NCBI RefSeq assembly: GCF_018446385.1 | Contig: NC_055990.1 | Span: 31,209,891-31,273,890 of the forward strand | Reading direction: 5' to 3' | DNA from: Zingiber officinale | Lineage: Eukaryota; Streptophyta; Magnoliopsida; Zingiberales; Zingiberaceae | DNA: 64,000 bases | Notes under the pieces: generated by a model | Database searches by the model: none | What the model was told of the DNA's origin: nothing | The model's input: only the letters and a program-made list of their open reading frames with translations | Made by a program: the position numbers and the translations under genes | In this document: positions 14,596 to 40,389 of the stretch, piece after piece | Layout: each line of letters opens with the position of its first letter | Numbering within the stretch: the first letter of the stretch is position 1

Positions 14596-15437
14596 TGTTG
14601 GACCCCGTTGTTGTTTTGATGTGATCAACCAAGTTTATGTTAGGTCCTGTTTGTCTGATCCCTGTGTCTAAGTGTGCAGGAACTTAGAAGCGTAGGAAAT
14701 TGAGTGGAAGATGCAGCTAGCGAGAAGGACGGCACGGGAAGGGAGCCGACGGGCTCGGTGCGTCCGAAGGACGAGAGAGCTGCGGAAGAGTACACCGGTG
14801 GGCGTGAAGAACGTACACGGCGTTTGAGGGACGTAAAGCCGAGACGGAAGACTGCTCGAGGAGAAGGCCGGGAACTGGGTTCGGGTGAGCCATATTCCGG
14901 ATGGCCGAAATCACTCAAGCAAGCTGAACCAGAGCAAGTCAACCGGGAAGTTGACTTGGCAAGTGTTCGGTCGACCGAATCCTCTGATCGGTCGACCGAA
15001 CCCCTTTTCATCAGAAGCCGGCCGTTGGAGACACGTCAGCAGCCATGTCAGCAACCAATGGCTGATCGGTCGACCGACCCTCTGATTGGTCGACCGAATC
15101 GAAGATATTCAGAGACTTGGTCGAAGTGATTTGATCGGGTCAGATCGAGTAGAGACCGTTGGCTGATCGGTTGACCGAATACAAGGATCGGTCGACCGAA
15201 CCTAAGCTCGATCCACAGAGTCTGCTTCCAGACGGGAAGCTGGGAAAGTACACAGGTTCGGTCGACCGAACCTAGGGATCGGTCGACCGATCCCCCTCTC
15301 GAAGTCAAACCCTGATCCCGAAGATCAGGGACTCTGGATGAGTCTTGGAACCCCTATATAAAGGGGTCTCGAACAGTAGAACGAGAATCATCAATTCTAT
15401 AATTTTTTTTTAAACAACCTCTGTGCTCTTAAAGTGT
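14596..15437 (+). mobile_element. Ty1/copia 5' LTR, left part
   Basis: The LTR starts TGTTGGACCCCG at 14,596, directly in the hAT gene. It contains about nine copies of GGTCGACCGA(A/T), an 'ATATAAAGG' TATA box at about 15,355, and is cut at 15,437 by the CACTA element. The remainder is at 24,930-25,168. Open frames on both strands here are low-complexity products of the CGACCGA repeats. Confidence 0.8.
14960..15295. repeat. Dispersed GGTCGACCGA repeats within the LTR
   Basis: The palindromic TCGGTCGACCGA and near variants occur about nine times in 330 bases, often in pairs with different spacers. It sits just upstream of the LTR TATA box, so it may be a U3 enhancer block; that role is inference. 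Confidence 0.7.
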
Positions 15438-15459
15438 CACTACAAAAAATAAAGGCTTC

Positions 15460-16100
15460 TGGGACAAATTTTGGGACGAATTTGACAAAAAAATTCGTTG
15501 CAAAATATTTAGGGACAAAATTTGGGACGAAAATATTTTCGTCCCAAAATTATTGATGCCAACTTTTGGAACAAATATTTGTTCGTTGGAAATTTGGCAA
15601 CGAATTTGGGGACAAAATTGGCGATGAATAATATTTTCGTCCCCAAATTCGTTGCCAATTTTGCAACAAAAAACTCTATTTGTCCCAAAATACTATACAA
15701 TTTTGCAACGAAAATTTATTTTGTTGCAAACTTAGCAACGAATTTGGGGACGAATTCGGGGATGAATTTAATTCTGTTGCCAAATCTGTCCCAAATTTGG
15801 CAACAAATTATATTTTCGTTGCCAAATTTGTTGCTAATTTTCATGACACATTGCAACGAATATTATTTTTGTTGCAAAATTTACAACGAATTTGGCAACG
15901 AAAATACTAATTTCATTTAAAAAATAAATATTCATTCCAAATTTCGTCCCAAATACTGGAACAAATCCGCAGTTTCGTCCCAAATTCTGGGACGAATCCG
16001 CATATTCGTCCCAGAATCTGGGACGAAATTTGGAACAAAAATATTTTTATTGCAAAATTATCAATGGATAAGTTTGGAACAAATTATTTTCGTTGCCAAA
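15460..16100. repeat. CACTA left subterminal repeats
   Basis: Dozens of short degenerate motifs of the type TTGGGACGAA, TTGCAACGAA, TTCGTCCC and TTCGTTGCC in both orientations. The right subterminal region (24,590-24,905) has the same set. Between 16,100 and 16,430 the DNA is AT-rich with no recognised feature. Confidence 0.8.
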
Positions 16101-16429
16101 TTCGTTCCTAAATTAAAAAAAAAATCCAGCAACTATACATTTCTACAATAAATTCAAATAAAATATATATAACAAATTCAAATAACAAAATATAGACTTT
16201 CAACACATCCTAATTAACAATATCACAAATAACACAATATATACATTCAACACATCCTATTTCAGATACATATATTAATAATTGAAATCAAATCACAATA
16301 CAACAAATTCAAAGTTCTCAACATCTTCTTCAAACGACTCCAAAATATTATACAAGTTCAACACTCAAATATTTATAAAGTCTAATAATCCAAGAAGTTA
16401 AACAAGGAGTTAAATTTAAAAAAACTAAG

Positions 16430-18390
16430 ATACATCAACTCATCTTCTTTCTCCACAAAAGCTTTCATCCCCATCAACTCTTCTCTTCCTGCATACAAAC
16501 AAACGAATAAACCAGATCATGTGTAACCAGAAAGATAATAACTTAAATTCTAACAATCTCACAATTCTAATAGTTTCATTTGTATCAAATTGTTATGATA
16601 TACCATATTTCACCTTATCAAACAAGTTTTACAAATATTATATTTCATCAAACATAGAGAGAATGAGATGTATTCTTAAAATCCCTATAATATGAAAATG
16701 TCTGAAATGAAAAAAACACAAACTAATATATGAGCAATTAGTTGATACTAGTCTTTAAGTACTCATAGTTACTTGGTTATTAGGCAAACTCTAATCATAA
16801 TTTGGAATTTGAAGTAATAATGCAATAATATCAAATTTCAACAAATATATAAAAAGATACCTTTATTTAACTTTTCAAATATAACTAATTTAAAAATATA
16901 TAAATATAATTAAAAGTCTAACATGTTCAACTACGAGTGTGTTATTTAATACTTACTTTTTTCTCCGATACATATTTCGCCTCACCAATCCTGTTAAAAA
17001 CAAATTAACAATATTAAATAAAATAAAAATTAGAAAAGTTAACATGGCATGGTTTAATGTATAAAACACTAATTATGAGACAAATAATCATCAGACATAA
17101 TTAAAATCATGAAATAGCATCACCAGCATCATCGTTATCATCATCGCCATCATCATCATCGTCACGCGGAGGAATCTGACTTAGAGCGGAACTAAAAATT
17201 CCAATATAAGATAAAGTAAATTGCAAATTTGATTCATAAAAAGGAACTTTCAAAAACTTACCATTTTTCTTCAAATAGCTTGTAGAACAAGAGGGGAAAA
17301 AAAATATTAGATGTCACCTCTAATGACCTGTAGGAATAAATACAATGTATTAACTGATAAAATAAATAAAATTATAACTGAGACAGTATATAAAAAGTGA
17401 GATATAAGTTTGGTAAGTTTGCATATTAAAGATAGGCTAGAATACCACGGGGAAGATCTACAAAAGTGCTTTATGATACGAGTGTCTCCAACTACACCGA
17501 GCGAGACCTGCACAAACAAAATTACAAATTTAGTCAATACCTTAACATAATAAATCATTTGTACTTTTTTCACTAGCATTTTAGTCTCTCTAAACTTTGT
17601 TCTTTTAGTAGCTATAAATGTTATTTTTTTGGCCATGAATGATGATCAATTTCAGTAGACGACTCTTGTTGATAAGCCGAACCCACAAAATCAAGCCAAC
17701 TATCATTCTACTTAGGAGATAAGATGAGAAATCAGAGGCGTAATTTGATGGAAAGCACAAATTCAATGCATGAATAAATTACTGAGACTTAGCAAGTCCA
17801 AATTCTTACTGTTCAAAGAAATAACATAAAATGTTGACCTAAAATGAGTTGATTGAATCAAGGTTACAAAATCAATCATCATTGTAACTGGATAAGCATA
17901 CAAACAGCGGATAAGTACTGTATCGGAATTTAAACCACCGGAGCAGCCCCGTCCAGGAGCAGCCACACGCTGCCAGGTGCGGCCACGAGCGGCCAAGCAC
18001 GCCGCAAGAGGCGGCGGTGCTCGCTGGAGACAGCGGCGGTGGCCGCGGGAGGAGGCGACGGTGGCCGCTGGAGGAGGTGGCGCCTGCTCGAGGGAGAGCG
18101 ACGGCCGTGAGAGGAGTTGGTGGCAGCCGTTGGAGCCTCACCCAAACGAGCGGAATGGCAGCCAAAGAAGACGACGGCGGCGGCGGCGCGCGCGTGTGGG
18201 ACTGCGGGAGCCCGCGCGACGACACCACCGAGCGCGCCGCGCTATGCACATCATAGACCGCCACACCATGACGCGGCCCAGATGGGAGAGGGAAGAGGGA
18301 TTACCTGCGCCGCTGCAGGAGAAGGATTCTGCCACCGCTGGAGAAGGATTCAGCCGCCGCTGCGAGAAGGAGATCGGGTAAAGAGAATAT
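16430..18390 (-). other. Gene-like segment carried in the CACTA element
   Basis: On the minus strand a GC-rich block (18,390-17,930) looks like a monocot gene 5' end. It encodes only low-complexity Arg/Pro/Ala/Ser-rich peptides in all frames, and has a donor-like CAG/GTAATC at about 18,305. Downstream, AT-rich DNA contains short exon-like islands bounded by splice-like sites: near 17,515-17,445 (VSLGVVGDTRIIKHF), an Asp-rich island at 17,170-17,110 (PPRDDDDDGDDD), and one after TGCAG at about 16,490. I recognise no protein family. A captured host-gene fragment or a decayed element gene are both possible. Confidence 0.4.
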
Positions 18391-18399
18391 GTGGGATTA

Positions 18400-21300
18400 A
18401 GGGATATAGGGTTTTTTAGAAACAAAAATAGTTTGTTGCCATTTTTGTCCCTACTTTTGGGACGAATTCCTGGATTCGTCCCAAATTTTGGGACGAATCC
18501 AGGATTCGTCCCAGATTTAAGAAAATTAAAAAAAAAAAAAATTAATCGGATGACTAAATATGGACCTAGAGATGTCGGAATTTCACGAAACAAGTTTCTA
18601 TGGATTCCTAATTTTTTCCTAATCTCAAAAATATCCTTATCCATAATTTTAACATATTATATTGACTGTGGTGAATTTTTTATTAAGAATTAGGTCATAT
18701 TCGTGTTAAAAAATCACCACACTCAATATATTAGGTTAAAATTTAGAATTAGTATATTTTTATGATCAGGAGAAAATTATGAATGCATAGAAACTTGTTT
18801 CATTAAATTCCGAGATCTCTAGGTCCATATTTAGGCCTTCGGAATGATATTTATTTTATTTTTTATTTTTTTTAAATCTGGGACGAATCCTGGATTCGTC
18901 CCAGATTTTGGGACGAATTCCTGGATTCGTCCCAGATTTGGGGATGAATTCCAGGATTCGTCCCAAATTTTGGGACGAATCCAGGATTCGTCCCAGATTT
19001 AAGAAAATTAAAAAAGAAAAGAAAAATTAATCGGAGACACTAAATATGGACCTAGAGATGTCGGAATTTCATGAAACAAGTTTCTATGGATTCCTAATTT
19101 TTTCCTAATCTCAAAAATATCCTTATCCATAATTTTAACATATTATATTGACTGTGGTGAATTTTTTTATTAATCATTAGGTCATATTCGTGTTAAAAAA
19201 TCACCACACTCAATATATTAGGTTAAAATTCAGGATTAAGATATTTTTATGATCAGGAGAAAATTATGAATACATAGAAACTTATTTCATTAAATTCCGA
19301 GATCTCTAGGTTCATATTTAGGCCTTCCGAATGATATTTATTTTATTTTTTCATTTTTTTAATTTTGGGACGAATTCCTGGATTCGTCCCAGATTTTGGG
19401 ACGAATTCCTGGATTCGTCCCAGATTTTGGGACAAATCCAGGATTCGTCCCAAATTTAAATAAATTTAAAAATAAAAGAAAAATTAATCGGAGACACTAA
19501 ATATGAACCTAGAGATGTCGGAATTTCATGAAACAAGTTTCTATGGGTTTCTAATTTTGTAATAATCATAAATAAATCCTCATTCATAATTTTGACCTAA
19601 TATATTTAGTGTAGTGATTTTTTAAACCAAATTCTTTAAATTCAAGTTAAAAAATCACAACACTCAAAATATTAGGGTAAAATTATAGATGAGGACATTT
19701 TTACAATCAGGAGAAAATTATAAACTCATAGAATCTTGTTTCATAAAATTCTGACATCCGTAGGTATATATTTAAAGTTTTAGACACATATTCAAACATA
19801 CGTTAAACGCTAACATACTTAATTAACATTAAACTATCTATGTTTCACTAAATATGGACCTAGAGATGTCGGAATTTCATGAAACAAGTTTCTATGGATT
19901 CCTAATTTTTTCCTAATCTCAAAAATATCCTTATCCATAATTTTAACATATTATATTGACTGTGGTGAATTTTTTATTAAGAATTAGGTCATATTCGTGT
20001 TAAAAAATCACCACACACAATATATTAGGTTAAAATTTAGAATTAGTATATTTTTATGATCAGGAGAAAATTATGAATGCATAGAAACTTGTTTCATTAA
20101 ATTCCGAGATCTCTAGGTCCATATTTAGGCCTTCGGAATGATATTTATTTTATTTTTTATTTTTTTTAAATCTGGGACGAATCCTGGATTCGTCCCAGAT
20201 TTTGGGACGAATTCCTGGATTCGTCCCAGATTTGGGGACGAATTCCAGGATTCGTCCCAAATTTTCGGACGAATCCAGGATTCGTCCCAGATTTAAGAAA
20301 ATTAAAAAAGAAAAGAAAAATTAATCGGAGACACTAAATATGGACCTAGAGATGTCGGAATTTCATGAAACAAGTTTCTATGGATTCCTAATTTTTTCCT
20401 AATCTCAAAAATATCCTTATCCATAATTTTAACATATTATATTGACTGTGGTGAATTTTTTATTAATCATTATGTCATATTCGTGTTAAAAAATCACCAC
20501 ACTCAATATATTAGGTTAAAATTCAGGATTAGGATATTTTTATGATCAGGAGAAAATTATGAATACATAGAAACTTATTTCATTAAATTCCGAGATCTCT
20601 AGGTTCATATTTAGGCCTTCCGAATGATATTTATTTTATTTTTTCATTTTTTTAATTCTGGGACGAATCCTGGATTTGTCCCAGATTTTGGGACGAATTC
20701 CTGGATTCGTCCCAGATTTTGGGACGAATTCCTGGATTCGTCCCAGATTTTGGGACAAATCCAGGATTCGTCCCAAATTTAAATAAATTTAAAAATAAAA
20801 GAAAAATTAATCGGAGACACTAAATATGAACCTAGAGATGTCGGAATTTCATGAAACAAGTTTCTATGGGTTTCTAATTTTGTAATAATCATAAATAAAT
20901 CCTCATTCATAATTTTGACCTAATATATTTAGTGTAGTGATTTTTTAAACCAAATTCTTTAAATTCAAGTTAAAAAATCACAACACTCAAAATATTAGGG
21001 TAAAATTATAGATGAGGACATTTTTACAATCAGGAGAAAATTAGAAACTCATAGAATCTTGTTTCATAAAATTCTGACATCCGTAGGTATATATTTAAAG
21101 TTTTAGACACATATTCAAACATACGTTAAACGCTAACATACTTAATTAACATTAAACTATCTATGTTTCACTAAATATGGACCTAGAGATGTCGGAATTT
21201 CACGAAACAAGTTTCTATGGATTCCTAATTTTTTCCTAATCTCAAAAATATCCTTATCCATAATTTTAACATATTATATTGACTGTGGTGAATTTTTTAT

Positions 21301-24300
21301 TAAGAATTAGGTCATATTCGTGTTAAAAAATCACCACACTCAATATATTAGGTTAAAATTTAGAATTAGTATATTTTTATGATCAGGAGAAAATTATGAA
21401 TGCATAGAAACTTGTTTCATTAAATTCCGAGATCTCTAGGTCCATATTTAGGCCTTCGGAATGATATTTATTTTATTTTTTATTTTTTTTAAATCTGGGA
21501 CGAATCCTGGATTCGTCCCAGATTTTGGGACGAATTCCAGGATTCGTCCCAAATTTTGGGACGAATCCAGGATTCGTCCCAGATTTAAGAAAATTAAAAA
21601 AGAAAAGAAAAATTAATCGGAGACACTAAATATGGACCTAGAGATGTCGGAATTTCATGAAATAAGTTTCTATGGATTCCTAATTTTTTCCTAATCTCAA
21701 AAATATCCTTATCCATAATTTTAACATATTATATTGACTGTGGTGAATTTTTTATTAATCATTAGGTCATATTCGTGTTAAAAAATCACCACACTCAATA
21801 TATTAGGTTAAAATTCAGGATTAGGATATTTTTATGATCAGGAGAAAATTATGAATACATAGAAACTTATTTCATTAAATTCCGAGATCTCTAGGTTCAT
21901 ATTTAGGCCTTCCGAATGATATTTATTTTATTTTTTCATTTTTTTAATTCTGGGACGAATCCTGGATTTGTCCCAGATTTTGGGACGAATTCCTGGATTC
22001 GTCCCAGATTTTGGGACGAATTCCTGGATTCGTCCCAGATTTTGGGACAAATCCAGGATTCGTCCCAAATTTAAATAAATTTAAAAATAAAAGAAAAATT
22101 AATCGGAGACACTAAATATGAACCTAGAGATGTCGGAATTTCATGAAACAAGTTTCTATGGGTTCCTAATTTTGTAATAATCATAAATAAATCCTCATTC
22201 ATAATTTTAACCTAATATATTTAGTGTAGTGATTTTTTAAACCAAATTCTTTAAATTCAAGTTAAAAAATCACAACACTCAAAATATTAGGGTAAAATTA
22301 TAGATGAGGACATTTTTACAATCAGGAGAAAATTAGAAACTCATAGAATCTTGTTTCATAAAATTCTGACATCCGTAGGTATATATTTAAAGTTTTAGAC
22401 ACATATTCAAACATACGTTAAACGCTAACATACTTAATTAACATTAAACTATCTATGTTTCACTAAATATGGACCTAGAGATGTCGGAATTTCACGAAAC
22501 AAGTTTCTATGGATTCCTAATTTTTTCCTAATCTCAAAAATATCCTTATCCATAATTTTAACATATTATATTGACTGTGGTGAATTTTTTATTAAGAATT
22601 AGGTCATATTCGTGTTAAAAAATCACCACACTCAATATATTAGGTTAAAATTTAGAATTAGTATATTTTTATGATCAGGAGAAAATTATGAATGCATAGA
22701 AACTTGTTTCATTAAATTCCGAGATCTCTAGGTCCATATTTAGGCCTTCGGAATGATATTTATTTTATTTTTTATTTTTTTTAAATCTGGGACGAATCAT
22801 GGATTCGTCCCAGATTTTGGGACGAATTCCTGGATTCGTCCCAGATTTGGGGATGAATTACAGGATTCGTCCCAAATTTTCGGACGAATCCAGGATTCGT
22901 CCCAGATTTAAGAAAATTAAAAAAGAAAAGAAAAATTAATCGGAGACACTAAATATGGACTTAGAGATGTCGGAAGTTCATGAAACAAGTTTCTATGGAT
23001 TCCTAATTTTTTCCTAATCTCAAAAATATCCTTATCCATAATTTTAACATATTATATTGACTGTGGTGAATTTTTTATTAATCATTAGGTCATATTCGTG
23101 TTAAAAAATCACCACACTCAATATATTAGGTTAAAATTCAGGATTAGGATATTTTTATGATTAGGAGAAAATTATGAATACATAGAAACTTATTTCATTA
23201 AATTCCGAGATCTCTAGGTTCGTATTTAGGCCTTCCGAATGATATTTATTTTATTTTTTCATTTTTTTAATTCTGGGACGAATCCTGGATTTGTCCCAGA
23301 TTTTGGAACGAATTCCTGGATTCGTCCCAGATTTTGGGACGAATTCTTGGATTCGTCCCAGATTTTGGGACAAATCCAGGATTCGTCCCAAATTTAAAAA
23401 AATTTAAAAATAAAAGAAAAATTAATCGGAGACACTAAATATGAACCTAGAGATGTCGGAATTTCATGAAACAAATTTCTATGGGTTCCTAATTTTGTAA
23501 TAATCATAAATAAATCCTCATTCATAATTTTAACCTAATATATTTAGTGTAGTGATTTTTTAAACCAAATTCTTTAAATTCAAGTTAAAAAATCACAACA
23601 CTCAAAATATTAGGGTAAAATTATAGATGAGGACATTTTTACAATCAGGAGAAAATTAGAAACTCATAGAATCTTGTTTCATAAAATTCTGACATCCGTA
23701 GGTATATATTTAAAGTTTTAGACACATATTCAAACATACGTTAAACGATAACATACTTAATTAACATTAAACTATCTATGTTTCACTAAATATGGACCTA
23801 GAGATGTCGGAATTTCATGAAACAAGTTTCTATGGATTCCTAATTTTTTCCTAATCTCAAAAATATCCTCATCCATAATTTTAACATATTATATTGACTG
23901 TGGTGAATTTTTTATTAAGAATTAGGTCATATTCGTGTTAAAAAATCACCACACTCAATATATTAGGTTAAAATTTAGAATTAGTATATTTTTATGATCA
24001 GAAGAAAATTATGAATGCATAGAAACTTGTTTCATTAAATTCTGAGATCTCTAGGTCCATATTTAGGCCTTCGGAATGATATTTATTTTATTTTTTATTT
24101 TTTTTAAATCTGGGACGAATCCTAGATTCGTCCCAGATTTTGGGACGAATTCCTGGATTCGTCCCAGATTTGGGGACGAATTCCAGGATTCGTCCCAAAT
24201 TTTGGGACGAATCCAGGATTCGTCCCAGATTTAAGAAAATTAAAAAAGAAAAGAAAAATTAATCGGATACACTAAATATGGATCTAGAGATGTCGGAATT

Positions 24301-24590
24301 TCATGAAACAAGTTTCTATGGATTCCTAATTTTTTCCTAATCTCAAAAATATCCTTATCCATAATTTTAACATATTATATTGACTGTGGTGAATTTTTTA
24401 TTAATCATTAGGTCATATTCGTGTTAAAAAATCACCACACTCAATATATTAGGTTAAAATTCAGGATTAGGATATTTTTATGATCAGGAGAAAATTATGA
24501 ACGCATAGAAATTTGTTTCATTAAATTTCGAGATCTCTAGGTCTATATTTAGGCTTTTCGAATAATATTTATTTTATTTTTTAATTTTTT
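18400..24590. repeat. Higher-order tandem array of long palindromes
   Basis: Fourteen near-palindromic units start with TAAATATGGACCTAGAGAT (or GAACC variant) at about 18,555, 19,041, 19,498, 19,849, 20,335, 20,821, 21,172, 21,627, 22,113, 22,464, 22,950, 23,436, 23,787 and 24,273. They follow a repeating A-B-C order. A and B are about 285-bp hairpins with arms of roughly 130 bases; C is a more diverged relative. Most are separated by 2-4 copies of a 30-base inverted module built from GGGACGAAT(T)CC and its complement, but C runs into the next A through a distinct 60-70 base linker. The A-to-A period is 1,292-1,323 bases, giving about 4.6 copies. Copies are very similar, suggesting recent amplification. 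No coding potential. Confidence 0.9.
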
Positions 24591-24905
24591 AAAATCTGGG
24601 ACGAATCCCGGATTCGTCCCAGATTTTGGGACGAATTCCTGGATTCGTCCCAGATTCTGGAACGAATCCAGAATTCGTCCCAGATTCTGGAACGAATCCA
24701 GAATTCGTCCCAGAATTTGGAACGAATCCTAGATTCGTCCCAGATTCTGGAACGAATTTTGCAACGAAAATATTGTTTGTTGGCAATTTGCGATGAAATT
24801 TTTTTGTTGCAGATTTCGTTTCTAATTTGGGTCAAATTTTATATTTGTTGCCAAAATTGTTGCAATTTTGGGACGAAAAATTTTCGTCCCAAACTTTCGT
24901 CCCTA
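24590..24905. repeat. CACTA right subterminal repeats
   Basis: Alternating GGGACGAATCC and GGATTCGTCCC modules, followed by TTGCAACGAA/TTCGTTGC-like motifs, mirror the left subterminal region in inverse order. Confidence 0.8.
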
Positions 24906-24929
24906 AATTATTGTTTTTTTGTAGTGTGT

Positions 24930-25168
24930 AAAATGCTTCTCCGCCTTCAAAAAAGAAGACTCTTTTAGTGCGTCTTTCCACCGCCTTGGATTAACAACCG
25001 TCTCGGTTGTAACCAAGTCAAATAGTTGAGTCGTCTCTCTTTTCTTTTTTGTTAATTACTTTAATTATTAGTGTTGCTTTATTTTAGAGTTGAAAGTTCG
25101 AGTAGGATATAATTTTTTGGTTGCAGACAATTCACCCCCTCCTCTTGTCAGTCCTCGCTGCACCAACA
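24930..25168 (+). mobile_element. Ty1/copia 5' LTR, right part
   Basis: Continuation of the LTR begun at 14,596, ending in CACCAACA at 25,168. It is followed two bases later by the tRNA-Met primer site. It includes the poly-pyrimidine stretch TTCACCCCCTCCTC typical of copia LTR ends. Confidence 0.8.
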
Positions 25169-25170
25169 AG

Positions 25171-25181
25171 TGGTATCAGAG
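25171..25181 (+). other. Primer-binding site, initiator tRNA-Met type
   Basis: TGGTATCAGAG lies two bases after the LTR end, as in Ty1/copia elements. It fixes the plus orientation. Confidence 0.85.
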
Positions 25182-25375
25182 ACAACAGCCTCAGAAGGAC
25201 TAATCACCGTCTGAAGCACAAAGATCAGGATAATGACCGGTACGTGTGAACATTCATCCTCCGAAATTCGATGAAAATTTCACTATATAAAAACAAAAAA
25301 TAAAAATATTCTTTAAAATGGATTTTGACATTCTTATTACAATCAAATATGATTTTAATATTACCTTTTAAGTAA
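25182..25375 (+). mobile_element. Ty1/copia leader and start of gag, truncated
   Basis: After the primer site a short leader leads to a Gag-like start (around 25,255-25,360, with the KFDENF-type motif of copia Gag). Similarity to copia ends by about 25,375, so this is a truncated fossil with only its 5' end present. Confidence 0.6.
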
Positions 25376-29914: not shown

Positions 29915-31732
29915 TGTTGGGATTTTCGACTCGCAAAAACCGCTTTTACGTTGCGGAAACCCCGAAAGCTCATGCCACCGGATCCGTGTGAATATTAAAA
30001 TTGTACATGTACAAGTTTTCTAATCCTAGATCTACTTTAGATCTACATATTTAGGAGTTTATACCTTTGATGCGAAGCCCTTCGCTTATCCCGCTCGTCC
30101 AAGGTTCGCTGAATCTCAAGGGTGTCAAATGAACATCCCTCTATGTGTATCCACACGAACAAAAGGTGGAGAAGAAACCTTAGAGTGTGCTAGCACCCTT
30201 GAAGGTTTCGGCCAAGGTGGAGGAGAGGGAGAGAAGAAGAAACAAGGAGGAAGAGGATGCCTTGAATGAGTTTACACAATTGTAACTCATGGAATCATGT
30301 GGCCGACCACCTTAGAAAGAGGTTATATACCTCCATGGGATATCAAGAGTCACAACTCTTGATCTCTCTCATGAGATGGCACACACATGGGCTAATATTG
30401 ATGATGTGGAATATTATCATTGGCCCACTTAATGCCAACTCACAAATGAGGTGGCAATGGTCAAGTCAAACTTGACCTTTCATCTTCCCTCTCAAGTCAA
30501 GTCAAACTTGACCACTTCTCTCCCATGGTTGATCAAATCTAACCATTTGATTCAAATCAATTTAATATAATGAATTTCTATTCATTGATTAAATTGATTC
30601 AATGAAAATAATCTAAATTAGATCCATTGTACACATGAATCAAATCGAGTCTAACTCAATTAGTTTAATTTGGATTACTCTTAATCCAACTTGGTTCATC
30701 ACATGAACCTAATCCTCTTGGTTCATCAAATGAACTTAATCTCCATCTAATTGCCCTTTTTGTGTGACCCTATAGGTTCTTGTAATGTTGGCAATACTCC
30801 TAAACTCATTTAAAAGCATAAGTAATTAGCAGTATCTAGCAACACATCATTACTACCCAAGTTACAAGAATGTTGAGATCCAACATCACCTTGTGACTAC
30901 TAATTGTGACTCTTCACAGTATATGACAAGTGTCCTTCTATCCTTGACACCTACATTGATCAATGTGAGGCATAAACCGTGTCATCCTCTGATCAATCTA
31001 AATCTTGAACTCCAAGTAGACTCACTATAATCAAATGAGTTCAATATCTTATATTGACTCATTTGGGCATGACCATGCACTTAGTGGTCTCACTCTATCA
31101 AGAATAACAATGTCACTCCCGTTATATAGGAGGGATAGATCTCATTTACATCACTCACATCCCTCCACATAATTTGTTACATACCCAGTAATCGTCTTTA
31201 TAGTCCACCTAGTTACGGGTGACATTTGACGAAGCCAAAGTATGCAACTCCTTATGTAGGGAACCATGGTGACTTCAGGTCCAAGGACTAATAGTCATAC
31301 TAATAGCCACATAAAAAAATATATGACACTCATATAACGATCCATGATACTTTCTCATGGCGAGTCATTCAGTATACATTCTCCAATGTATACCCATGTG
31401 TCAACTTGATATCTCTATATCCATGACTTGTGAGATCAAGTCATCGAGTTTACCTACATGCTAGTTTCGTCGCATTAACATTGTCCCTAAATGTTAATAC
31501 TTGACTAGAAATGATTAAGAGTAGTATTTTCTATATCATCTCACTATCGATTCAACCAATCGATTGATATAGATATGAACCTTCTACTCAAGGACGCTAT
31601 TATACTTAATTATTTGACACTAATACAAGTAAGTATAATAATTAAAACAAATGTCTTTATATATATAGGAATATGATATAATTAGTCCATACAACAATCA
31701 TCATATGATTGGCTCTAAGGCTCTAACTAACA
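29915..31732 (-). mobile_element. Ty1/copia 3' LTR (1,818 bp)
   Basis: On the plus strand the LTR runs TGTTGGGATTTTCG ... CTCTAACTAACA. It aligns to 38,596-40,389 along its length and to 37,276-38,446 over its first part. Just right of it, on the minus strand, a purine tract (CTAGTGGGAGAT) marks the polypurine tract. By eye the LTRs differ by about 4% in compared stretches. Confidence 0.85.
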
Positions 31733-37275: not shown

Positions 37276-38446
37276 TTTGGGATTTTCGAGCCATAAAAAT
37301 CGCTTTTGCGTTGCGGAAACTCCGAAATCCCATGCCATCGGATCCGTGCGAATATTAAAATTTTACATGTACAAGTTTTCTAATCCTAGATCTACTTTAG
37401 ATCTACATATTTAGGAGTTTATACCTTTTATGCGAAGCCCTTCGCTTATCATGCTCGTCCAAGGTTCGCCGGATCTCAAAGATATCAAATGAACACCCCT
37501 CTATGTGTATCCATACGAACAAAAGGTGGAGAAGAAACCTTAGAGTGTGCTAGCAGCCTTGAAAGTTTCGGCCAAGGTGGAGGAGAGGGAGAGAAGAAGA
37601 AACAAGGAGGAAGAGGATGCCTTGAATGAGTTTACACAATTGTAACTCATGGAATCATGTGGCCGGCCACCTTAGAAAGAGGTTATATACCTCCATGGGA
37701 TATCAAGAGTCACAACTCTTGATCTCCCTCATGAGGTGACACACACATGTGCTAACCTTGATGATGTGGAACATCATCATTTGCCCACTTAATGCCAACT
37801 CACAAATGAGGTGGCAATGGTCAAGTCAAACTTGACCTTTCATCTTCTCTCTCAAGTCAAGTCAAACTTGACCACTTCCCTCCCATGGTTGATCAAATCT
37901 AACAATTTGATTCAAATCAATTTAATATTATGAATCTCTATTCATTGATTAAATTGATTCAATGAAACATAATCTAAATTAGATCCATTGAGCACATGAA
38001 TCAAATCGAGTCCAACTCAATTAGTTTAATTTGGATTACACTTAATCCAACTTGGTTCATCACATGAACCTAATCCTCTTGGTTCATCAAATGAACCTAA
38101 TCTCCATCTAATTGCCCTTTGTGTGTGACCCTATAGGTTCTTGTAACATTAACAATGCACCTAAACTCATTTAGAAGTATAAGTAATGAGCGGTATCTAA
38201 CAACACATCATTACTACCCAAGTTACAAGAATGTTGAGATCCAACATCACCTTGTGACTACTAATTGTGACTCTTCACAATATATGACAAGTGTCATTCT
38301 ATCCTTGACATCTAGATTGATCAATGTGAGGCATAGACCGTGGCATCCTTTAATCAATCTAAATCTTGAACTCCAAGTAGACTCACTATAATCAAATGAG
38401 CTCAATATCTCATATTAACTTATTTGGGCATGGTCATGCACTTAGT
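37276..38446 (-). mobile_element. Extra partial copia LTR (tandem duplicate)
   Basis: Matches the first ~1,170 bases (plus-strand order) of the full LTR, then switches at 'cttagtggtc' straight into a second copy of the leader end and primer site. Confidence 0.85.
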
Positions 38447-38595: not shown

Positions 38596-40389
38596 TTTTG
38601 GGATTTTCGAGCCGCAAAAATCGCTTTTACGTAGCGGAAACCCGAAATCCCATGCCACCGGATCAGTGTGAATATTAAAATTTTACATGTACAAGTTTTC
38701 TAATCCTAGATCTACTTTAAATCTACATATTTAGGAATTTATACCTTTGATGCGAAGCCCTTCGCTTATCCCGCTCGTCCAAAGTTCGTCGGATCTCAAG
38801 GGTGTCAAATGAACACCCCTCTATGTGTATCCACACGAACAAAAGGTGGAGAAGAAACCTTAGAGTGTGCTAGCACCCTTGAAAGTTTCGGCCAAGGTGG
38901 AGGAGAGGGAGAGAAGAAGAAACAAGGAGGAAGAGGATGCCTTGAATGAGTTTACACAATTGTAACTCATGGAATCATGTGGCTGGCCACCTTAGAAAGA
39001 GGTTATATACCTCCATGGGATATCAAGAGTCACAACTCTTGATCTCCCTCATGAGGTGACACACACATGTGCACATTGGCTCACTTAATGCCAACTCACA
39101 AATAAGGTGGCAATGGTCAAGTCAAACTTGACCTTTCATCTTCTCTCTCAAGTCAAGTCAAACTTGACCACTTCTCTCCCATGGTTGATCAAATCTAACA
39201 ATTTGATTCAAATCAATTTAATATAATGAATCTCTATTCATTGATTAAATTGATTCAATGAAACATAATCTAAATTAGATCCATTGAACACATGAATCAA
39301 ATCGAGTCCAACTCAATTAGTTTAATTTGGATTACTCTTAATCCAACTTGGTTCATCACATGAACCTAATCCTCTTGGTTCATCAAATGAACCTAATCTC
39401 CATCTAATTGCCCTTTGTGTGTGACCCTATAGGTTCTTGTAACGTTAACAATGCTCCTAAACTCATTTAGAAGTATAAGTAATAAGCGGTATCTAGCAAC
39501 ACATCATTACTACCCAAGTTACAAGAATGTTGAGATCCAACATCACCTTGTGACTACTAATTGTGACTCTTCACAATATATGACAAATGTCCTTCTATCC
39601 TTGACACTTAGATTGATCAATGTGAGGCATAGACCGTGTCATCCTCTAATCAATCTAAATCTTGAACTCCAAGTAGACTCACTATAATCAAATGAGCTCA
39701 ATATCTCATATTGACTTATTTGGACATGGTCATGCACTTAGTGGTCTCACTCTATCAAGAATAACGATGTCGCTCCCGTTATATAGGAGGGATAGATCCC
39801 ATCAACATCACTCACATCCCTCTACATAATTTGTTACATACCTAGTAATCACCTTTATAGTCCACCCAATTACGGGTGACGTTTGACGAAGCCAAAGTAT
39901 GCAACTTCTTATGTAGGGAACCATGATGACTTCAGGTCCAAGGACTAATAGTCATACTAATAACCACATGAGAAAGTATATGACACTCATATAACGATCT
40001 ATGATACTTTCTCATGGCGGGTCATTCAGTATACATTCTCCAATGCATACCCATCTGTCAACTTGATATCTCTATATCCATGACTTGTGAGATCAAGTCA
40101 TTGAGTTGACCTACATGCTAGTCTCATCGCATTAACATTGTCCCTGAATGTTAATACTTGACTAGGAATGATTAAGAGTAGTGTTCTCTATATCATCTCA
40201 CTATCGATTCTACCAATCGATTGATATAGATAGGAACATTCTACTCAAGGATACTATTATATTTAGTTATTTGGCACCAATACAAGTAAGTATAATAACC
40301 AAAACAAATGTCTTTATATATATAGAAATATGATACAATGAGTCTATATAACAATGATCATATGATTAGCTTTAGGGCTCTAACTAATA
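38596..40389 (-). mobile_element. Ty1/copia 5' LTR, full length
   Basis: Runs from TTTTGGGATTTTCG at 38,596 to CTCTAACTAATA at 40,389. The flanks TAATG (29,910-29,914) and TTATG (40,390-40,394) are a plausible 5-bp target duplication with one mismatch. This supports one insertion spanning 29,915-40,389. Confidence 0.8.

Follow-up and report, generated by a model that had tools for sequence, protein, structure and literature searches.

A higher-order array of palindromic units in a mobile CACTA transposon family of ginger

Why do the ends of CACTA transposons bear many inverted motifs, and why are these so different from one family to another? The question is raised by a 64-kb stretch of ginger DNA, termed the window below, in which a sequence-only reading had seen fourteen long palindromes and assigned them to a CACTA element. 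The assignment holds: positions 15438-24926 are a 9,489-bp element of the CACTA (En/Spm) type, as CACTACAAAAAA terminates both ends and gives terminal inverted repeats beginning CACTA, a 3-bp target-site duplication (TGT) borders the insertion, and a subterminal motif is present in both orientations, the counts of GGGACGAA and TTCGTCCC being 5+5 on the left, 3+7 on the right and 27+33 in the array. The longest reading frame of the element is of 168 amino acids and no transposase gene was detected in it; three minus-strand frames of 16120-18420, partly given, had no Pfam match at a cutoff of E 10 in a scan of the interior that took in minus-strand frames only. From left to right, the features are as follows.

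15435..15437, unstranded: target-site duplication TGT, left copy
15438..24926, unstranded: CACTA element, 9,489 bp, with CACTACAAAAAA ends and without detectable transposase
15438..16130, unstranded: left subterminal region, 5+5 GGGACGAA/TTCGTCCC sites
16131..17929, unstranded: A+T-rich interior, common to relatives, its minus-strand frames without Pfam match
17930..18390, unstranded: G+C-rich block (68%) adjoining the array; the fetched relatives mostly differ here
18447..18518, unstranded: small palindromes at the left array end
18553..18834, plus strand: unit 1, type X
18879..19000, unstranded: small palindromes of the X-Y joint
19039..19321, plus strand: unit 2, type Y
19362..19457, unstranded: small palindromes of the Y-Z joint
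19496..19775, plus strand: unit 3, type Z
19776..19846, plus strand: Z-X spacer without small palindromes, which marks the array direction
19847..21169, plus strand: second X-Y-Z block (units 4-6) and its spacer
21170..22461, plus strand: third X-Y-Z block (units 7-9) and its spacer
22462..23784, plus strand: fourth X-Y-Z block (units 10-12) and its spacer
23785..24066, plus strand: unit 13, type X
24271..24553, plus strand: unit 14, type Y
24591..24926, unstranded: right subterminal region, with small palindromes (24595-24757) and the terminal repeat
24927..24929, unstranded: target-site duplication TGT, right copy

The G+C-rich block at 17930-18390 seems to be fast-changing; in those relatives where it was found, mostly just about 110 bp of it matches. 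Lying beside the array, it is reminiscent of the G+C-rich leader that adjoins the Spm promoter; were the two equivalent, a gene now lost would have had the array on its promoter side.

How is the array put together? Its fourteen palindromic units stand in the order X-Y-Z, four times over, followed by X-Y (starts at 18553, 19039, 19496, 19847, 20333, 20819, 21170, 21625, 22111, 22462, 22948, 23434, 23785 and 24271), which is the number and the three-type order that had been read. Self-comparison on both strands, proposed in advance, found inverted matches within units. On the opposite strand there are separate whole-unit matches for four of the five X units (82.7-83.4% over 283 columns) and for all four Z units (77.7-78.4% over 278 columns), and the remaining X unit and the Y units are contained in longer inverted matches. 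Arm-to-arm alignment gives 83-84% for X and Y and 79% for Z, so the description of units of about 285 bp as near reverse complements of themselves is accurate, with arms 79-84% alike. The one centre then quoted for all units is that of the five X units and, slightly changed, of the five Y units, but the four Z units have another. Small palindromes do separate most units: those built on GGGACGAATCC occupy nine of the 13 joints (all X-Y and Y-Z joints) and also close off the array at either end, but the four Z-X joints instead contain about 70 bp of spacer that lacks them. Palindromes of both kinds are indeed present in a higher-order tandem repeat; in place of two scales, a single alternating inverted array is the better description. 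In L031, a diverged relative, symmetry runs past the unit edge (GATTCGGAGG-CACTAAATATGG ... CCATATTTAGTG-CCTCCGAATC) and on through an A+T-rich stretch to the small palindromes, and therefore the array is a succession of half-units pointing alternately one way and the other. Such a succession has, of itself, dyad centres of two kinds in one design, the first within units and the second at the boundaries between them. The Z-X spacer, which departs from this scheme, has the same orientation in 21 of 22 elements checked and is inverted in L031, which implies that an array has been inverted at least in part. Adjoining L031 (C6:28482317-28492316) is a reading frame that, by eye, resembles BAHD acyltransferase.

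What in this array might matter to the element? CACTA subterminal regions carry protein-binding repeats at both ends and in both orientations, and GGGACGAA, likewise in both orientations at both ends, would by analogy be such a repeat. The element has 80 sites (35+45 for GGGACGAA and TTCGTCCC) and the rest of the 64-kb window none; 200 shuffles of the element gave a mean of 0.07 and a maximum of 1. Multiplication of binding sites would fit both this distribution and known CACTA biology, and the useful part of the array is probably the motif. The reading preferred here, to which we give a probability of roughly 0.6, is that the array is the subterminal region, grown large, of a CACTA family (En/Spm type) with no transposase seen in its fetched copies; GGGACGAA would be the part that is bound, and the 285-bp palindromes would for the most part travel with it. 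The unit may nevertheless be more than a passenger, being recognisable across subfamilies and having well-conserved arm stretches; over 28 arm groups, half-unit conservation is 0.95 at ATGAAACAAGTT vs a low of 0.67. Elsewhere in the window a short tandem repeat with a 27-bp period (TAATCCAACTTGGTTCATCAAATGAACC) recurs, with three copies within 9 kb, at 30682-30741, 38043-38102 and 39339-39398.

Is the array an accident of one locus, or of its assembly? The ginger genome, described as haplotype-resolved in PMC8342452, was searched over 3.09 Gb in 211 contigs, with 11 chromosome pairs, and 16 further complete copies were fetched among 40 listed by left end. A genome search for the unit had been proposed; the fetched copies have similar arrays, differing in length, at other loci; since those arrays have their own target-site duplications, an assembly artefact is an unlikely source. 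Intact 3-bp duplications are present in 16 of the 17 complete elements, that of the window counted, the exception being L024. The window element interrupts an LTR retrotransposon (flanks 15088-15437 and 24930-25279), and the joined flanks read through the junction, at 87-93% identity, in all 40 scored copies of it. That retrotransposon has thousands of first-look candidates in the genome. The repeat targeted by L017 is also uninterrupted in 40 of 40 scored copies, and for L009 on C13 a single full-length match was found, a site on C14 without the insertion (84%, with gaps), so that just one of the homologues probably has it. All three elements tested thus have counterparts of their insertion site without interruption at other places in the genome, and the family has been mobile.

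Among 11 left insertion flanks fetched, four pairs (C13/C14, C19/C20, C5/C6 and C9/C10) are 97-98% identical, the similarity that homologues should show. The flanks of a further pair, 96% identical, are both on C12, and a C11 flank is without partner. The two C12 elements, L052 (C12:58411003-58411252) and L053 (C12:58423364-58423613), are 12 kb apart; their proximity is perhaps a local duplication or an assembly matter. By hit coordinates, the insertion shared by C13 (104.13 Mb) and C14 (87.45 Mb) spans 6,488 vs 6,979 bp, and about 481 of the 491 bp of difference lie between the interior and the right end. Hit coordinates also place a second right end of the element 556 bp from the first at C14:87460781-87461521, a possible tandem duplication of a CACTA end.

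The number of units differs greatly from copy to copy: the 17 complete elements have 6, 8 (five elements), 9 (two), 10, 11 (three), 12 (two), 14, 17 and 20. Longer still is the array of L021_22 (L021 and L022, C10:9132222-9152221), with at least 21 units in the part read; an insert of about 7.4 kb in it resembles, from its reading frames by eye, a Ty3/gypsy retrotransposon. By position, nine of the 17 complete elements follow a strict (XYZ)n-XY pattern and the other eight have extra diverged terminal units or irregular order. Same-type units are 96-98% identical between elements, and identity within vs between elements is 0.972 vs 0.961 for X and 0.989 vs 0.981 for Z, with no excess for Y (0.970 vs 0.970), which points to shared ancestry and some local amplification. 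Six diverged relatives were also fetched, and in four of them (L029, L031, L033 and L034) there are arrays; no transposase was recognised by eye in the reading frames of those four, L033 and L034 being covered in part. For L030 and L032, 10 kb that stopped short of the other end contained no unit; L030 contains a retrotransposon reading frame. The array architecture is an old one, common to diverged subfamilies whose end and interior stretches, where aligned, are 8-23% different. Such variation in unit number would also be natural to a passive satellite lodged in a CACTA element, resized by unequal exchange and useless to it, for which there is precedent in the 171-bp array near the 3′ end of the Chenopodium CACTA element Jozin, as described in PMC8978399, and with which the divergence of arms without general compensation, given below, is in keeping. 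However, the small-palindrome motif is also at both element ends, outside the array, and the architecture has been kept across those subfamilies, so that we regard a useless satellite as rather unlikely.

Do the palindromes themselves do something? Folding predicted for RNA gives the X unit -137 kcal/mol (z -18.9, equalled by 0 of 100 shuffles) and the Z unit -110 kcal/mol (z -16.1, 0 of 200); for DNA, a small-palindrome cluster is given -66 kcal/mol (z -15.7, 0 of 200). Because shuffles never fold as well, a chance origin of the palindromes is excluded. These very stable predicted folds are what would commend the palindromes as a selected source of hairpin RNA, or as a cruciform, for siRNA silencing or for shape-aided transposition, and the report in PMC10760457 of maize small RNAs somewhat enriched in structured CACTA parts leans the same way. 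However, in X, Y and Z alike, a unit's left and right arms resemble each other no more closely than they resemble arms from other units of their type, and homogenisation of a unit's two arms is accordingly rejected for all three. Compensatory changes number 0-3 per comparison vs 0.3-1.1 expected, and one of ten completed tests for arm covariation was nominally significant (P 0.006, uncorrected), which falls short of a selected structure. With arms that diverge independently, without general covariation, selection for a hairpin is not supported; the function in cruciforms or hairpins that had been suggested at the outset finds no backing in arm evolution, and we consider it very unlikely. A division of the arms into a single left-arm and a single right-arm clade was not seen, support being mostly low; the L033/L034 arms are an exception, the left one of P clustering there with the right one of X at support 100, a sign that sequence may have been exchanged over a joint.

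Where, then, did the 285-bp unit come from? The X and Z consensus units share just one of 20 arm mismatches, in either orientation, and because this is so few their common ancestor would have been an inverted duplication, nearly perfect. An apparent lack of any shared arm mismatch between main X and the L035-L041 units was an orientation effect, and with the orientation flipped 4 of 20 are shared. A nearly perfect palindrome as progenitor of X and Z could also have been a foldback element or MITE that inserted into an ancestral CACTA end rich in GGGACGAA and was co-amplified with it, and the homology at the Z-X joint does stop exactly at CACTA/TAGTG. Against such an arrival, a solo copy is unseen, all of eight places read outside known arrays, among the matches listed, having adjoining GGGACGAA-like motifs (those beside the L040 unit are degenerate), and the symmetry of L031 extends past the proposed unit edge; an origin by insertion is thus doubtful in our estimation.

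Under the preferred reading of an enlarged subterminal region, amplification from that ancestor would have gone mostly in three-unit X-Y-Z steps, through unequal exchange or replication slippage, and block-wise growth of this sort would explain why array length differs among elements. GGGACGAA would be the likely binding site for a TNPA-like protein of an autonomous relative, its sites multiplied by the array at one end in the service of transposition, of countering silencing, or of both, with the 285-bp palindromes mainly passengers of that amplification. CACTA elements are moved by a TNP2-type transposase, either their own or one supplied by an autonomous relative. The genome has many Transposase_21 genes; of 150 Transposase_21 places scored among 6,544 candidates, none is less than 76 kb from any of 80 listed family ends, and neither these nor the six relatives yielded an autonomous partner or binding protein. 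TnpA activates Spm along with DNA demethylation. VANC21 binds motifs multiplied by the tandem repeats of VANDAL elements, according to PMC5735166 and PMC10398659, and it is because of the analogy with both that an anti-silencing role of the array may be entertained. A bolder version would make the array a selected platform, its symmetry loading one CACTA protein both ways over kilobases and so holding off silencing, its length tuning the mobility of each copy and its half-units, able to recombine in either orientation, renewing it; this we think improbable.

Plant CACTA ends are known to be rich in repeats, and the ginger array is an exceptionally elaborate case. Several features have relatives in print. 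Soybean Tgmt*, in the account of PMC2613891, is alike in its CACTA ends, 3-bp duplication and direct and inverted subterminal motifs that form palindromes, lopsidedly so with 12 at one border vs 2 at the other; unlike the ginger element it encodes a transposase, its palindromes stem from a 17-bp motif within 732 bp, and neither 285-bp palindromic units nor a three-unit higher-order repeat is described in the sections cited. Jozin (PMC8978399) shares a kilobase tandem array near the 3′ end (5,550 bp and 32.5 monomers in one case), but with a simple 171-bp monomer, not described there as palindromic or motif-interleaved, and with Transposase_21 domains, whereas no transposase was detected in the ginger element. 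In Arabidopsis VANDAL elements, as PMC5735166 and PMC10398659 have it, noncoding tandem repeats also multiply a short motif and their number varies by copy, but the element is of another kind and the VANC21 motifs are in one orientation; VANC binding and anti-silencing have been demonstrated there, whereas for the ginger array both would be analogies. Oyster Cg_HINE Helentrons (PMC7492417) are non-autonomous, spread short tandem arrays and have known uninterrupted insertion sites, yet belong to another superfamily, have no target-site duplication and hold the array between two modules. Short palindromic subterminal repeats (Tgmt*) and satellite arrays (Jozin) in CACTA elements are therefore already in print, separately. 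Searches of open-licence papers listed none on a CACTA element with 285-bp palindromes in an alternating inverted array that repeats by threes at a higher order, nor, for ginger CACTA elements, any description of this array architecture.

What does the ginger family offer? It is recently mobile, its arrays run from 6 to 20 units, and in a phased genome it has probable presence/absence and length differences between homologues, so that methylation, small RNAs and mobility could each be set directly against array length. The family indicates as well that a nearly perfect inverted duplication can multiply and persist in a transposon without staying perfect.
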